This document shows, one piece after another, positions 6,426 through 14,181 of a DNA stretch of 64,000 bases. The notes under the pieces were generated by a model. The model did not search any database and had not been told where the DNA came from. It worked only from the letters and a program-made list of their open reading frames with translations. Each line of letters begins with the position of its first letter. Within the stretch, counting starts at the first letter, position 1. The stretch spans positions 1 to 64,000 of the forward strand of contig NZ_KE952966.1 in assembly GCF_000466405.1 (NCBI RefSeq). The letters run 5' to 3'. A program made the translations under genes and the position numbers. The DNA comes from Atopobium sp. oral taxon 810 str. F0209 (lineage in GTDB: Bacteria > Actinomycetota > Coriobacteriia > Coriobacteriales > Atopobiaceae).

Positions 6426-6561
6426 TACAGTGGGAGCGGGTGCTTCCGAAGTCCGTAGGGGAGCTATATAAGCAATTTAATTATGCGTACTTTCTATATA
6501 TCGTCCTTTGTTGATGCTGGTAGAATTATGCAGAATATGGCTCTTTTGGAAGAAGGCATAC

Positions 6562-8409
6562 ATGTGCGGCATCGTTGGCTTTACCGGCAGAAAGCAAGCA
6601 CAGCAATTTTTGCTTGATGGCCTACAGGCCCTAGAATATCGCGGCTACGACTCCGCGGGTCTATCTATCTTGTCTCCTGATGGCGAACTGCATGCGGTGA
6701 AGTGTTCCGGTCGTGTAGCAACTCTTGCCGAGCGCTGCCAAACGGCAAATTTGGTGGGTACCCAAGGCATTGCTCACACACGTTGGGCGACGCATGGTGC
6801 GCCGACCGATCGCAATGCACATCCTCATACTGATTGCACAGGACGCATTGCTATTGTGCACAATGGCATCATCGAAAACTATCTCAGCTTGCGCAGCTAT
6901 CTTATGCAGCATGGCCATGAAATCAAGAGTGAGACAGACTCCGAAGTAGTGGCGCATTTAGTGGAAGATGCGTGGAATGGTCCCGCGCGCGGCAATTTGC
7001 TGGCAGCGGTTCGCAATGCGGTATCGCGCCTTGAAGGCTCATGGGCGCTGGCGGTTGAGTGTGCCGATGCGCCAGGAGAGCTTGTCGTGGCACGCAAGGG
7101 CTCTCCGCTGGTAGTTGCTTCAACCCCTGAAGGTGCCTATGCTGCTTCCGACGTTATGCCACTTGCGGGCGTTGCTTCTGAAGTTATCAATCTTGAAGAC
7201 GGTCAGTTTGCGCGCCTTTGCGCTAATGGCAAAGTCGAGGTATTTGAGGCAGACGGCACACCCTGCGAATATCCTCAGACCTTACAGGTGGATTGGGATG
7301 CTTCTGCGGCAACACTGGGAGGCTATCCTGACTTTATGGCAAAAGAAATTGCCGAGCAGCCCGAGGCGCTGGAGCGTTTGCTGGCAGGCCGTTTGGGCAA
7401 GCATGGCATTGAGCTTGATGAGCTTTCAATGACAAAAGAAGAGCTAGCGGCAATTGATCGTGTGTATTTGGTTGCGTGTGGCACTTCGTACCATGTATGT
7501 CTCATTGCTCGTGAGTTGATTGAGCGCTGGGCACATATTCCTACGATTTGTGAGTATGCTTCCGAGCTTAACTATAAAGATCCATTGGTTACCGGCCATA
7601 CGCTTTGCGTTATCGTGACCCAGTCGGGCGAGACAGCAGACACGCTGACAGCAGCTCGTCGTATGAAGGCTTTGGGTTGTAAGGTCTTTGCGATTACCAA
7701 TGTCCTTGGCTCAACTGCTGCGCGAGAGTCCGACGGCACAATGTATGTGCAAGCAGGACCTGAGGTTTGTGTTGCTTCGACCAAAGCTTATACGGCGCAG
7801 GTGGTTGCTGCATGTCTCTTGACCCTACGACTTGCCTTTGCCAAGGGTGCCATGACCACGGAAGAAATCTCTCGACGTTATCATGACCTTGAGGCGCTGC
7901 CCGATCTCATCCGCGAGGTTTTAAAGCGTAGCTGGCAAGACAAGCGTGTGGCACAGGTTTTTCGCAAGGCACATTCAGCGCTGTTTTTGGGTCGTGGCGT
8001 CAATGCAACTACGGCATTTGAAGGTGCGCTCAAGCTCAAAGAAATCAGCTATTTGCACGCTGAGGCCTATCCTGCAGGAGAGATGAAGCACGGCCCGATT
8101 GCTCTGCTTGAGCCAGGTTTTCCTGTGGTTGCAATTGTGCCGGCAGACCATGTGCATGACAAGACGGTCTCGAACATCCAGGAAGTTCATGCTCGTGGTG
8201 CACACTGCATCGCAGTAGCCACTGATGGTGATGTTGATGTAGCGCGTCAATGCGAGAATACCCTTTGGATTCCGCCTGTTCCCGAAGAAGAGTTAGTGCC
8301 TATTGTGGCTATTGTGCATTTGCAGATGCTTGCTCGTTTTGTCGCGATGGAGCGCGGTTGCGACGTGGATAAGCCTCGTAACCTCGCAAAGTCCGTGACG
8401 GTGGAGTAG
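6562..8409 (+). CDS. glmS: Glutamine-fructose-6-phosphate aminotransferase (isomerizing)
   Basis: GlmS makes glucosamine-6-phosphate from fructose-6-phosphate and glutamine, the first step towards UDP-GlcNAc. The start at 6562 gives MCGIVGF, so the catalytic N-terminal cysteine is exposed after Met removal, and GAAGAAGG lies upstream. The Ntn glutaminase domain covers about residues 1-230 (RWATHGAP, HNGIIEN). Two SIS domains follow (VACGTSYH, TQSGETADT, GRGVNATTAFEGALKLKE), and the C-terminus ends in the usual NLAKSVTVE. At 615 residues it is full length. Only 4 bp separate it from the acpS-like gene. Confidence 0.97.
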   Translation: MCGIVGFTGRKQAQQFLLDGLQALEYRGYDSAGLSILSPDGELHAVKCSGRVATLAERCQTANLVGTQGIAHTRWATHGAPTDRNAHPHTDCTGRIAIVHNGIIENYLSLRSYLMQHGHEIKSETDSEVVAHLVEDAWNGPARGNLLAAVRNAVSRLEGSWALAVECADAPGELVVARKGSPLVVASTPEGAYAASDVMPLAGVASEVINLEDGQFARLCANGKVEVFEADGTPCEYPQTLQVDWDASAATLGGYPDFMAKEIAEQPEALERLLAGRLGKHGIELDELSMTKEELAAIDRVYLVACGTSYHVCLIARELIERWAHIPTICEYASELNYKDPLVTGHTLCVIVTQSGETADTLTAARRMKALGCKVFAITNVLGSTAARESDGTMYVQAGPEVCVASTKAYTAQVVAACLLTLRLAFAKGAMTTEEISRRYHDLEALPDLIREVLKRSWQDKRVAQVFRKAHSALFLGRGVNATTAFEGALKLKEISYLHAEAYPAGEMKHGPIALLEPGFPVVAIVPADHVHDKTVSNIQEVHARGAHCIAVATDGDVDVARQCENTLWIPPVPEEELVPIVAIVHLQMLARFVAMERGCDVDKPRNLAKSVTVE

Positions 8410-8413
8410 GGTT

Positions 8414-8914
8414 ATGGCAACAGCTGGCATCGGCGTTAACATCATGGATATAGAGCGCGTTGAGCGCACTTTGGCTCGCCGACCATCAATGGCCCGTCGG
8501 GTATTTACTGATGATGAGCGTCGTTACTGCGAATCTCGTCCTCGCCCTGCAGCTCACTATGCAGTGCGTTTTGCTGCTCGCGGGGCCGTTGCGACCGCCT
8601 TGGGGGCGGGTCCCGAGGATGGTATCTGGATGAGAAATGTGACCGTTGAGCGCGATGAAGATGGCAAGAATCATGCTGTTCTTGCTGGTCGTGCACTTGA
8701 ATTGGCACAAAAAGCGGGTGTTACCGAAATTGCCCTCTCGCTGTCTTTGACACACGAAGTGGCAGTTGCCAATGCGGTTGCTGTGACCGAAGATGCGCGC
8801 CCGCGCCTTGAAGAAAAACGTGATCCTGCCGAGGAGCTGCGAGCCACTTTTCGCCGTGCTCGGACGGTAATTGATGAATTAGAGCGTATCCAGACGAACC
8901 CCACAAAGGAGTGA
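8414..8914 (+). CDS. acpS: AcpS-like protein (holo-ACP synthase family) lacking catalytic residues
   Basis: The fold signature of holo-[acyl-carrier-protein] synthase is recognisable: GIGVNIMDIERV at the N-terminus, RFAARGAVATALG, and SLSLTHEVAVANAVAV near residue 120. However, the metal-binding Asp of the GxGxDI motif is N9 here. The conserved KE of RFAxKEAxxKAxG is R56-G57, and the later Lys is T61. The 166-residue length includes an extra charged helical tail of about 35 residues. Activity as a phosphopantetheinyl transferase is therefore doubtful. Gene order (glmS, acpS, nnr, alr, tsaE) matches common actinobacterial clusters, which supports the family assignment. Confidence 0.75.
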   Translation: MATAGIGVNIMDIERVERTLARRPSMARRVFTDDERRYCESRPRPAAHYAVRFAARGAVATALGAGPEDGIWMRNVTVERDEDGKNHAVLAGRALELAQKAGVTEIALSLSLTHEVAVANAVAVTEDARPRLEEKRDPAEELRATFRRARTVIDELERIQTNPTKE

Positions 8915-8918
8915 TGAC

Positions 8919-10535
8919 ATGCAGCCAGTGCTTAATGTCGAAGATGTCAAAAGGGTTGAGGAGGCGCTCACCAAGGCAGGTGTGAGTGTGTCAGAGCTTA
9001 TGCACCGCGCAGGTGCTGCGCTGGCCCATGAAGTACTGCGCATGGAAGGCATTCATGAGGTTGCCATCCTTGCAGGCTTGGGTAACAACGGCGGTGATGG
9101 CTGGGTAGCAGCAGATGAACTCAAGCGCCGTGGACTCAGCGTAACTGTGGTTTCACCTGCAGAGATCGAAGATATTCATAGTGATCTTGCACGTGTGTGT
9201 GCTCAAGCAGCCCATAAAGCAGGCGTTGGTGTGATGGTTGCTCCTCCGCGCGATCAGCTGGATGCTCTGCTTGCTAGTGCCGATGTCGTGGTTGATGCCA
9301 TGTTGGGTACGGGTTTTCAGGGCAGCGCTCGTCCACCTTTCAATGTATGGATTGACGCAGTGAATGCGTCGGGTGCGCGTGTGGTTTCTGCTGATGTGCC
9401 AAGTGGACTTTCTGCCCAGCGCGGCGTGGCATCTGGCCCTTGCGTAGCTGCCGACATAACCGTAACAATGCTCGTGCTTAAACCTGGTTTGTTGGCTGAT
9501 GATGGCCGCGATGCCTGCGGGTCCATCGTTGTAGCTCCTTTGGCCGAGCAGACCGAGCGACTTGTTCGTGAAGCAGATCCTGTAGCATGGCGCCCCGACC
9601 TTGACGACTACTTAGATGTAATGGCACCGCAGTCTTCGGCGGTGGACAAGTTTAGCCGCGGTTCAGTGTTGGTGGTTGGTGGCTCTACTCGCTATCCCGG
9701 CGCTCCAATGATGGCCGCGCGTGCCGCTGCTCGCGCGGGCGCTGGTTATGTAACGCTTGCGGTACCTGCGGCTATTGCAGGTCTTGTGCAAACACATATG
9801 ATGGAAATTCCCGTAATTGCCCTACCTGCTGATGCTGATGGTTGTTTTTCAACACGTGCTCACGATCTTATTGAGTCTCTGGCAAAAAAGTGTGATGTAA
9901 CACTCGTGGGGCCCGGCATGCGTGTGAGCGGTTCGACAGTTTCTATTGTCTCGTCTTTGCTTACCGTTGATAAGCCGCTGGTTATTGATGCTGACGGCCT
10001 TAACTGTCTTGCTCGTCTTACCTCAAACCAACTGGATGAGTTCCCTGAATTGATTCGTCGTAAGGCGCCGTTGGTGCTGACGCCGCACCGCCTGGAGCTT
10101 GGTAGGTTGGTAGGGCTGTCTGACACACCTCCTGATTCACTTACCTCGGTCCTTGAGGCTGCTCGCCGTATTGCATGGGCCGATGGCGGCTCTGAGCTTT
10201 GTGTAGTGGCAAAAGGCAGTGCGACTGCTTGCGTGAGTCCAGAATCTGCTCTGCTTCCCAAACCTGGACCTGCAGCGTTGGCGACTGCTGGTTCGGGTGA
10301 TGTATTGGGCGGTATCATTGCAGCGCAGTTGGCAACTACCAAGATCGGTACAGAGGGACTGCCCTTGCTTACTGCCTTGGCCTGCGAGATTCATGGCCAG
10401 GCAGGAGCCATTGCGGCTGGACGTTTTGGCTCGCGTGGCGTAATGGCAACAGACATTATTGATGCAATTGGACTTGCGGCAGATGCAATCGAGGAGCAGG
10501 TGGCGCTTCTAGATTTGCCTGGCGCAGCGGAGTAG
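8919..10535 (+). CDS. nnr: Bifunctional NAD(P)H-hydrate epimerase/dehydratase
   Basis: This 538-residue enzyme repairs hydrated NAD(P)H. Residues 1-215 are the YjeF_N epimerase domain (GNNGGDGWVAADELKRRG, VDAMLGTGFQG, SADVPSGLSA). Residues 230-530 are the ribokinase-like dehydratase domain (KFSRGSVLVVGGSTRYPGAP, VIDADGLNCL, LTPHRLELGRL, and the catalytic-site GSGDVLGGIIAAQL). It starts 4 bp after the AcpS-like gene, preceded by AAAGGAG. Both halves are full length with the key motifs present. Confidence 0.95.
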   Translation: MQPVLNVEDVKRVEEALTKAGVSVSELMHRAGAALAHEVLRMEGIHEVAILAGLGNNGGDGWVAADELKRRGLSVTVVSPAEIEDIHSDLARVCAQAAHKAGVGVMVAPPRDQLDALLASADVVVDAMLGTGFQGSARPPFNVWIDAVNASGARVVSADVPSGLSAQRGVASGPCVAADITVTMLVLKPGLLADDGRDACGSIVVAPLAEQTERLVREADPVAWRPDLDDYLDVMAPQSSAVDKFSRGSVLVVGGSTRYPGAPMMAARAAARAGAGYVTLAVPAAIAGLVQTHMMEIPVIALPADADGCFSTRAHDLIESLAKKCDVTLVGPGMRVSGSTVSIVSSLLTVDKPLVIDADGLNCLARLTSNQLDEFPELIRRKAPLVLTPHRLELGRLVGLSDTPPDSLTSVLEAARRIAWADGGSELCVVAKGSATACVSPESALLPKPGPAALATAGSGDVLGGIIAAQLATTKIGTEGLPLLTALACEIHGQAGAIAAGRFGSRGVMATDIIDAIGLAADAIEEQVALLDLPGAAE

Positions 10536-10545
10536 GGGGTGCAAT

Positions 10546-11706
10546 ATGGCGCAGGTACAGTATCCCTCTGATCGCTGGGCGTGGGTTGAGATTGATCTTG
10601 GCGCAGTCAAGAGAAATACACGCGCATTTCGCTCGATGATTGAGCCAGGTACCAAACTGATGTGTGTGGTTAAGGCAGATGGCTATGGTCACGGTGCGGT
10701 CGCTTGTGCCAAAGCTATGCGTTCTGGCGGAGCAGATCAGTTTGCTGTAGCAACCGTTGCGGAAGGTGTAGAGCTGCGTAAAGCTGGGGCAACTCGCCCT
10801 ATTTTGATACTTAATCAACCGCCAATCGACGCAGTACAGACGCTTGTGGAATACGACATTATGCCGTCGGTATATGGGACAGAGTTTGCTTTGGCATATG
10901 GTGAGTGTGCTGCTGCTGCCAACAAAGTGGGTAAGTATCATCTGGCAGTTGATACGGGTATGACACGTATTGGGGTGATGCCTGACGAGGTGCGCGAGTT
11001 CCGCCATGCAGTGGATTTCCACCGCGGCCTTGAATGCGCGGGTACCTTTACGCATTTTGCAACAGCTGAGGTGCCGGGGGACTGGGATTTTGAGTTGCAA
11101 GCTAACCGCTTCTCTGAGACTATTGCTGATTTGCGCGCGTCGGGTGTTAATCCTGGTCTGGTACATTGTGACAATACACCGGGTACCGTACTGCATCCGC
11201 GCCAGCATTTTGACATGTGCCGCGTGGGTATAGGTTTGTATGGTCTGCAGGCCTCTGATACAACTGCAGCACGTATGGATTTGGAGCCAGCAATGAGCGT
11301 GCGCGCTCGCGTGACGCGTGCGGTCAATCCGCCCGTGGGAGCAGGTGTTGGCTATGGGATGACTTGGCGCGTTCCTCGCGGAAACGTGCAGGTTGCAACA
11401 GTGCCCTTGGGCTATGCAGACGGACTTGCTCGCACACTATCCAACCGTATTGACGTGCTCTGTAACGGACATCGCTTCCAGCAGGTGGGCAATATCTGTA
11501 TGGATCAGTTTATGTTTGCGGTGGAGGTTAATACCGCTCGTAGCTATCAACCCATCGAGCCAGTACAAGAAGGCGATGTGGTAACCATTGTTGGTCGTGA
11601 TGGCAATGATGAAATCACGCTCGATGATATGGCTGCAGTGCGTGGAACTATCAATTATGAAGTCGCTTGTGACTTTGGGCTAAGGCTTGAGAAGGTTTAT
11701 GTCTAG
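10546..11706 (+). CDS. alr: Alanine racemase
   Basis: This PLP enzyme makes D-alanine for peptidoglycan. The cofactor lysine lies in MCVVKADGYGHG near residue 43, the TIM-barrel domain contains VDTGMTRIG and MCRVGIGLYGL, and the C-terminal domain has the second catalytic tyrosine in GVGYGMTW. The length of 386 residues is typical. It follows nnr by 10 bp, in a cluster making cell-wall precursors (glmS, alr) and modifying tRNA (tsaE). Confidence 0.96.
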   Translation: MAQVQYPSDRWAWVEIDLGAVKRNTRAFRSMIEPGTKLMCVVKADGYGHGAVACAKAMRSGGADQFAVATVAEGVELRKAGATRPILILNQPPIDAVQTLVEYDIMPSVYGTEFALAYGECAAAANKVGKYHLAVDTGMTRIGVMPDEVREFRHAVDFHRGLECAGTFTHFATAEVPGDWDFELQANRFSETIADLRASGVNPGLVHCDNTPGTVLHPRQHFDMCRVGIGLYGLQASDTTAARMDLEPAMSVRARVTRAVNPPVGAGVGYGMTWRVPRGNVQVATVPLGYADGLARTLSNRIDVLCNGHRFQQVGNICMDQFMFAVEVNTARSYQPIEPVQEGDVVTIVGRDGNDEITLDDMAAVRGTINYEVACDFGLRLEKVYV

Positions 11707-13104: not shown

Positions 13105-14181
13105 TCAGAACATGCGACGTTTCATTTGGTATAAAAAGTTATGAAGTAAGTATTGTTTTTGGATAGTTATATTGTCTAGAGAAGGATGCGGTAGCCCCAG
13201 TTCTGCTTCCCAAGTAAAAATTGAGTCATTGAAAGCTTGATTGTTTAACAATTGACCAAAAGTAACTGAAATAACCTTATGACCCTGCGCTCGTAGTATT
13301 CCTGCACGAGTTTGTGTGTGGTCGAATTGCTGTCTATTCATGTGCTCTTCGTAACTGTCATATTCGAAGATGGCATCTAAATCCGGAAAATAGATATCAG
13401 CGCGAAGATAGTTACAACCGAGAGTACGTTGCCATCGATAGTTATGCAAAGGGAATTCCTGAGCTGCTTGATGTGGTGGAAATCCGCGCCCTCCCAGTCT
13501 AAGCGGAAGTGCCAGCTCGATTGAGAGGTTAACCTCTTGAGGTGATTCACAATTCTCATGCACGTACAGCAGCGCCTCTCGCGCTTTTGCAACACCATAT
13601 ACACCGGTAAGTTGATTGAGGTAATTTGAAATACGCTCAATCGAAGTGAGGGGATTACGTTTTCCTATAAGTCCATAACCCTCTGGAGATATATAAAATT
13701 TGCTGCAGAGATAGTAGCCGATCTCTATAGCATGAACGATATTAGATGTCCCCGAAGCAATTTCAAAGAATGTTGCTTCGGGGGAAGTAATCAAATCTTG
13801 TTCATTGAGCATGAGAATCGACCCTTCTGGCAAATGATGCTGAGATGTGGTCTGAGCAGTTCCTCTGATGGCGTGTGCTTGGAAATTTTGGGCTCTCCTA
13901 ATGTCAGCTCGTGATTGCACCAACGTATGAATAAGGTGGTCGGTTTTGCATGACTCATAGGCACTATGGGAATTGCAATGAGCAGTGTCTCGGTGATGAG
14001 CGGTGCCTCGATCTGGTAAAGCGCCACAATCTATCAGAAAGGCACGCACTCTATCCACATCGGCTGTGCTGGTAGTGAGCGACTGAATCAATGAGTGGTT
14101 TGCGACGCATAATTGTCCTGGCGATTGGCTGCGGGTGAGCCAATAAGCGAGTGCTGTTGAATGTGCAATGCAAGTTCCCAT
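13105..14181 (-). CDS. DUF559/Vsr-like PD-(D/E)XK protein of coriobacterial type
   Basis: I recognise the C-terminal half as a restriction-endonuclease-like fold of the DUF559/Vsr type. LRADIYFPDLDAIFEYDSYEEH supplies the candidate Asp and Glu-x-Asp residues, followed by a helix (TRAGILRAQ) and GHKVISVTFGQL. The N-terminal half contains SPEATFFEIAS and GYYLCSKF, a layout I associate with multi-copy proteins in Coriobacteriia. Length is 358 residues; no clear ribosome binding site precedes the ATG. It lies opposite to the surrounding tsa genes, between two copies of the 102-bp repeat. Nuclease activity and biological role are unproven. Confidence 0.6.
   Translation of the reverse strand: MGTCIAHSTALAYWLTRSQSPGQLCVANHSLIQSLTTSTADVDRVRAFLIDCGALPDRGTAHHRDTAHCNSHSAYESCKTDHLIHTLVQSRADIRRAQNFQAHAIRGTAQTTSQHHLPEGSILMLNEQDLITSPEATFFEIASGTSNIVHAIEIGYYLCSKFYISPEGYGLIGKRNPLTSIERISNYLNQLTGVYGVAKAREALLYVHENCESPQEVNLSIELALPLRLGGRGFPPHQAAQEFPLHNYRWQRTLGCNYLRADIYFPDLDAIFEYDSYEEHMNRQQFDHTQTRAGILRAQGHKVISVTFGQLLNNQAFNDSIFTWEAELGLPHPSLDNITIQKQYLLHNFLYQMKRRMF

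Follow-up and report, generated by a model that had tools for sequence, protein, structure and literature searches.

Loss of catalytic residues in an AcpS homologue of Atopobium sp. oral taxon 810 and its relatives in the Atopobiaceae

According to PMC11436758, the phosphopantetheinyl transferase AcpS is highly conserved, bacteria cannot survive without it, and antibiotics are sought against it. In Atopobium sp. oral taxon 810 str. F0209 the acpS gene is present as an open reading frame, and its product has lost the metal-binding acids and the catalytic lysine of the family. The locus raises the questions whether this protein can still act as a holo-ACP synthase, which enzyme would otherwise modify the carrier proteins, and why the gene is kept. 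An earlier note, made from the sequence alone, had proposed either a pseudoenzyme with a new role or a loss of the need for phosphopantetheinylation. The window referred to below is the whole stretch of DNA analysed, positions 1 to 64,000 of contig NZ_KE952966.1.

The acpS locus and its active site

The gene and its neighbours are as follows.

6508..8409, plus strand: glmS, upstream neighbour (Pfam SIS and GATase)
8414..8914, plus strand: acpS, predicted pseudoenzyme gene, 166 aa, ATG start (Pfam, NCBIfam and PDB matches, AF2 model, AcpS fold match)
8919..10535, plus strand: nnr, NAD(P)HX epimerase/dehydratase, downstream neighbour (Pfam YjeF_N and Carb_kinase)
10546..11706, plus strand: alr, alanine racemase (Pfam)

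The 8414-8914 product belongs to the AcpS family by homology and by fold. It scored 41.6 bits with the Pfam ACPS profile (cut-off 25), 63 bits with TIGR00556 (cut-off 45.35) and 58.6 with TIGR00516, just under the cut-off of 59.8, and its best PDB match was V. cholerae AcpS (1.5e-17). The AlphaFold (AF2) single-chain model had a pLDDT of 87.3, and its core matched V. cholerae AcpS (3qmn_X) with a TM score of 0.88 over 122 columns (Foldseek 4.1e-12). Both the reading frame and the operon position are intact, as the earlier note had stated: the gene order glmS-acpS-nnr-alr is followed by a uracil-DNA glycosylase gene and tsaE. The true start of glmS is likely an internal Met ahead of CGIVG.

Two further observations concern the window. 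A 358-aa ORF at 13105-14181 on the minus strand has no Pfam match at 0.001; its C-terminal part presumably resembles a DUF559/Vsr-like nuclease fold. At 35-139 lies a degenerate 31-bp tandem repeat of about 2.5 copies.

The active site positions of the window AcpS, all on the plus strand, are listed below.

8438..8440, plus strand: Asn9, replacing the metal-binding Asp (Asp8 in V. cholerae and B. anthracis AcpS, Asp9 in E. coli; sequence, alignment and PMC3447402)
8567..8569, plus strand: Arg52, probable CoA 3'-phosphate contact (our own mapping to Arg53 of B. anthracis by alignment; role from PMC3447402)
8582..8584, plus strand: Gly57, replacing the metal-binding Glu (sequence and family alignment; role from PMC3447402)
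8594..8596, plus strand: Thr61, replacing the conserved catalytic Lys (sequence and family alignment; role from PMC3447402)
8609..8614, plus strand: Gly66-Pro67, where 82/82 intact rows have Gly-Phe and just 1/16 degenerate rows has the Phe

In the account of PMC3447402 the acids of AcpS bind the metal and the conserved Lys protonates the leaving phosphate. Asp9, Glu57 and Lys61 were each found in 82/82 intact rows of the family alignment, a total of 82 of 83 because the row of genome G099, scored intact, comes from a fragment and is blank at these positions. The window AcpS has Asn, Gly and Thr instead, as the earlier note had read, and is thus without both metal acids and the catalytic Lys of an active holo-ACP synthase. 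The CoA-contact positions Arg44 and Arg52 are retained (Arg52 is lost in 5/16 degenerate relatives), and columns 66-67 likely belong to the CoA pocket. The note had also pointed to the Arg next to Gly57. This Arg56 is indeed present, but it is uninformative and was rejected as a sign of inactivity, as Arg is the family norm at this position (93/102 AcpS rows).

A sequencing or assembly error is unlikely and was rejected, since the nearest named relative, the vaginal bacterium Olegusella massiliensis KHD7, has the same Asn9, Gly57 and Thr61 in an AcpS that is 94% identical over 166 residues (the genome of O. massiliensis R25 is the subject of PMC13064086). In the alignment of the genus no substitute acid was seen close to residue 9 or residue 57, which bears on the possibility, allowed for in the note, that equivalent residues are supplied elsewhere. 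From the residue losses we infer that the window AcpS is catalytically dead and should transfer no phosphopantetheine.

Compared with bacterial (group I) AcpS of known structure (V. cholerae 3qmn, E. coli 5vbx and 5vcb), the window AcpS shares the fold and the docking arginines, but is without Asp9, Glu57 and Lys61 and has an extra helix at residues 138-161. The closest laboratory counterpart is E. coli AcpS D9A with CoA (PDB 5xuh), which by its entry title is still folded and CoA-bound. While that protein carries one engineered change, the window AcpS has also lost Glu57 and Lys61, naturally, and such losses have occurred repeatedly.

Recurrence of the losses and selection on the degenerate copies

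Alignment of the orthologues, as the earlier note had advised, showed that a degenerate AcpS is fixed in the genus (5/5 genomes): positions 9 and 57 are Asn and Gly in two, Tyr and Gly in two, and Asp9 with Arg57 in one. In the family (Atopobiaceae), 100/101 genomes had an ACPS match, the exception being G009, which is 57% complete and was dropped. Glu57 was missing from 16/99 scored genomes, and ten of these sixteen were also without Asp9; the degenerate copies fall in genera g1 (5), g2 (1), g9 (6), g26 (1), g30 (1) and g32 (2). Residue counts exclude rows without letters at 9 and 57, which leaves 102 rows from 100 genomes. As Glu57 is gone in all sixteen, it seems to have been the first residue to be lost, and its place is taken by Gly, Arg, Gln or Lys depending on the genome.

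Among named genomes 5/74 loci were degenerate, including that of 'Coriobacteriaceae bacterium COR2' with Gly at both acid positions; L148, a 40-residue match, was dropped from this alignment. In other families of the order, one of the 40 AcpS read was degenerate (G173, Ser at both acid positions); these 40 came from 109 matched genomes outside the family and were picked largely for low scores, so that 1/40 is no rate.

With the catalytic columns removed, the AcpS tree requires six changes of the loss trait, at least three of them forced by well-supported branches; the protein is short, there are long branches and the bootstrap is unsettled. The family and G173, an independent case, together hold at least three separate losses, and probably six to seven. 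Long degenerate branches were those of G001 (1.42), G068 (1.2), G025 (1.11) and G054 (0.98). In a further genome, G052, acpS (L182) is split over two reading frames; this single-contig genome encodes FabF and an Sfp-type transferase as well. The split may be a real frameshift, with the gene dispensable, or an assembly error, and G052 was excluded from the tree and from the Fisher tables.

Coding constraint was assessed by dN/dS. Between the window genome and O. massiliensis (G028) the values were 0.075 for acpS, 0.017 for part of glmS, 0.032 for part of nnr and 0.211 for the Sfp-type transferase gene described below, which thus evolves faster than the dead acpS in this Olegusella pair. Other degenerate acpS pairs gave 0.05, 0.14, 0.19, 0.23 and, for G054/G068, 0.42, and eleven intact pairs gave 0.03-0.22; in a seventh degenerate pair (G000/G050) the synonymous sites were saturated. 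The dead copies are thus under purifying selection, with dN/dS of 0.05-0.23 in five of six pairs and 0.42 in the sixth. Of the six degenerate pairs that could be measured, five had a lower dN in residues 101-160 than in residues 1-70; in the window genome/O. massiliensis pair dN of the tail half was not below that of the front half.

Of the columns in which at least 90% of intact rows agree, those most often lost when the protein is degenerate are 57, 67, 9, 66 and 77, followed by 8, 38, 61, 94, 52 and 53. These lie largely in the metal and CoA site; the fold columns, Arg15 and the tail columns listed below are kept. In the window AcpS the catalytic motif is lost and the fold and coding constraint are kept, as expected of a pseudoenzyme. 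Pseudoenzymes described for other families (PMC10211241, PMC5106787) likewise keep the fold and lose catalytic residues; the window AcpS is in addition under purifying selection. The proposal of a pseudoenzyme is supported by fixation in the genus, by recurrence, by the lack of a replacement acid nearby and by selection.

Carrier proteins, other transferases and fatty acid synthesis

If AcpS is inactive, the carrier proteins would need another enzyme. In the window genome AcpP is retained within a plsX-acpP-rnc cluster and has the Asp-Ser attachment motif, as does a DltC-like carrier after a DltA-like gene; plsX, rnc, DltA and DltC were named by us from the sequences. A search for a further transferase, which the earlier note had recommended, yielded two types in the family.

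G000:C5:118622-119305 (contig 5): Sfp-like protein of 229 residues, a separate gene from acpS, present in 5/5 genus members
L230-L239, L241-L244, L320, L322 and L323, for example L230:409-1119 (-): loci of a transferase of about 240 aa

The contig 5 candidate is of the Sfp type (group II), and its motifs GVD, W-x-R-x-E-A-x-L-K and GTG-F are invariant in the genus, with the Asp, Glu and Lys in 5/5. In its own sequence these are D114, T116, E166 and K170, so that the Asp-x-Glu triad and the Lys are in place; the Thr at the second triad position is tolerated in group II, where PMC4103896 describes the middle residue as variable and non-essential and the first and third as essential. On the other hand, the protein fell below the Pfam ACPS gathering score (16.1 of 25 bits), one His of its motifs has been lost in the two nearest Olegusella genomes (FNLSH has become FNLSD), and the gene evolves faster than acpS. 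Its activity is therefore less sure than the motifs suggest. Family relatives at L049, L050 and L061 lie above the Pfam cut-off, at 33-44 bits. A PDB search with the single sequence found nothing relevant, and with the profile of the candidate the matches to human PPTase (0.029) and Sfp (0.11) were only weak.

The second type was found with strong E-values in 17/101 Atopobiaceae genomes. It carries G-x-G-x-D-L and F-x-AKEAxFK, Pfam ACPS matches only its central part, and the Asp, Lys-Glu and Lys are kept in 12/12 aligned copies. The degenerate g9 genomes and G001 have this type instead of, or beside, the Sfp type, and in G173 there is a second AcpS, intact and tail-less. Another transferase was thus present in 17/17 degenerate genomes (16 of the family plus G173). 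With relatedness ignored, one of the two types was found in 16/16 degenerate and 29/83 intact genomes (Fisher 5.7e-7), and another transferase, judged by the number of Pfam matches, in 16/16 and 42/83 (1.3e-4, relatedness likewise ignored); an Sfp-profile hit in G010 that overlaps its own AcpS was dropped. The association is not phylogenetically independent: paired on the tree, it comprises only three supported independent pairs, six in all, a number too small to decide the matter. Most likely the Sfp-type enzyme now does the chemistry for the two carrier proteins found, AcpP and the DltC-like carrier.

As to fatty acid synthesis, no ketoacyl-synthase match (PF00109) was found in the window genome, whereas the same search was positive in 14/14 controls. 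The earlier suggestion that phosphopantetheinylation is no longer needed holds as far as the FabF-type ketosynthase is absent, but AcpP, the DltC-like carrier with its attachment Ser and the Sfp-type candidate are kept. The need is reduced rather than gone, and is probably met by another enzyme.

Across the family PF00109 matched in 37/101 genomes, 30 of them strongly, so that most Atopobiaceae seem to lack FabF-type fatty acid synthesis, although AcpS is near-universal. Full-length matches occurred in 2/16 degenerate (G066, G068) versus 27/83 intact genomes (Fisher 0.14), and degenerate G025 had a partial one. In a seven-member g9 subclade the single genome with intact AcpS (G092) is also the single FabF carrier. 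Loss of FASII as the sole cause was rejected on the Fisher value and on the 34 FabF-less genomes that, having neither an Sfp-type nor an approximately 240-aa transferase, have intact AcpS. By gene content, FabF absence is common and accompanies many degenerate cases, and is insufficient alone.

Retained surfaces and the role of AcpS

Two further parts of the protein bear on its retention.

8456..8500, plus strand: Arg15, Arg18, Arg22 and Arg29, probable carrier-protein-docking face, retained (alignment; PMC3447402)
8825..8896, plus strand: C-terminal tail helix, residues 138-161 (AF2 secondary structure; family and order alignments)

In degenerate rows Arg15 and Arg18 are each kept in 15/16, Arg22 in 16/16 and Arg29 in 13/16 (Lys in the other three). 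Arg14 of B. subtilis AcpS contacts Asp35 and Asp38 of ACP (PMC3447402), and Arg15 is its probable counterpart by our own mapping. Docking of DltC to AcpS has been described in L. plantarum (PMC9338922).

The charged helix, which the earlier note had taken for an addition, does exist, but it is an order-wide AcpS trait rather than something gained by the pseudoenzyme, a possibility that was rejected. It is found in intact Atopobiaceae AcpS and in the 40 proteins read from the order's other families (shortened in G126), and nearly every full AcpS match of the order-wide search reached profile positions 150-162 of 162. The 38 PDB matches to the same profile stop at position 127 at the latest, so the tail is absent from solved AcpS. 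Tail columns F146, A149, E155 and L156 are kept in 16/16 degenerate rows, and the tail is equally conserved in genomes whose sole transferase is AcpS. Since the tail was already conserved before catalysis was lost, an older, surviving second role is likelier than a new one, and the note's wording of a new role goes too far. Separately, second AcpS-like genes of about 128-172 aa, with matches ending before the tail, were seen in five Coriobacteriales contigs (G091:C3, G095:C1, G099:C40, G173:C22 and G217:C10), and L321, read from among them, is tail-less.

The main rival of a second role is plain redundancy decay: a second transferase, together with FASII loss, made AcpS useless, and the gene is now drifting, its frame intact by recency or by translational coupling with nnr. 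Several degenerate rows have long branches and have lost CoA-site residues, which speaks for it, together with the frameshift in G052, the lack of a FabF-type gene in the window genome and the lack of a full one in all but two of the sixteen degenerate ones. Drift is nevertheless difficult to reconcile with a dN/dS of 0.05-0.23 in all but one of the six degenerate pairs (0.075 over the full gene in the Olegusella pair), with four tail columns unchanged in every degenerate row and with a gene retained in 100 of 101 family genomes, and translational coupling would not preserve amino acids. We therefore consider decay unlikely, but a rival to be taken seriously.

The two other alternatives are much less probable. 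The protein could still be an enzyme of weak or changed transferase activity, with a further acid, water or an adjacent subunit assisting Asn9, in line with the retained fold, Arg44 and Arg52. Such activity is, however, made very doubtful by the lack of a new acid near residues 9 or 57 and by the variety of residues at 57, among which there is no single functional substitute; moreover, PMC4103896 describes the first and third metal residues as essential in the related group II enzymes. A dead AcpS might also regulate or inhibit the replacement transferase, through mixed complexes or by competing for the carrier, as the presence of another transferase in each of the 17 degenerate genomes and the retained docking arginines would allow. 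Against this, the replacements are of three unlike types (Sfp-type, approximately 240-aa, tail-less AcpS), which makes one shared direct partnership unlikely, and the tail is just as conserved where AcpS is the only transferase, so that we hold regulation to be improbable.

The explanation that we prefer, and regard as fairly probable, is that the window AcpS is a pseudoenzyme that has been kept for a second, non-catalytic role, its chemistry having been taken over by the Sfp-type enzyme. With both metal acids and the catalytic Lys lost, AcpS would transfer no phosphopantetheine, and modification of AcpP and the DltC-like carrier would have been handed to the Sfp-type transferase elsewhere in the genome. 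The second role of Coriobacteriales AcpS would then need the folded core, presumably trimeric, the docking face and the C-terminal helix, but neither CoA nor Mg. Selective loss of the active site in several lineages, with the rest kept and a substitute always present, fits a second role without catalysis. The long degenerate branches, on the other hand, fit relaxed constraint, and the dN/dS of 0.42 in G054/G068 and the G052 frameshift also count against this explanation.

A scaffold for carrier proteins is suggested by the docking face and tail that have been kept. Tentatively, the second role might be that of a trimer that docks a carrier without modifying it and offers three tail helices to a partner. 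For the order as a whole we lean, with some reserve, towards an AcpS with two jobs, whose active site decays where another transferase covers the chemistry, so that an AcpS with the second job only would have arisen several times.

Among the open-access papers listed on AcpS pseudoenzymes, Sfp-type replacement, Coriobacteria and Olegusella, no title or opening of an abstract gave a description of a naturally inactive AcpS. If the preferred explanation is true, AcpS would have an unrecognised second role, and the degenerate copies would form a natural separation-of-function series for finding it. The label 'holo-ACP synthase' is probably wrong in 16/99 scored genomes of the family, vaginal bacteria included, and AcpS inhibitors may fail against species with a dead AcpS.
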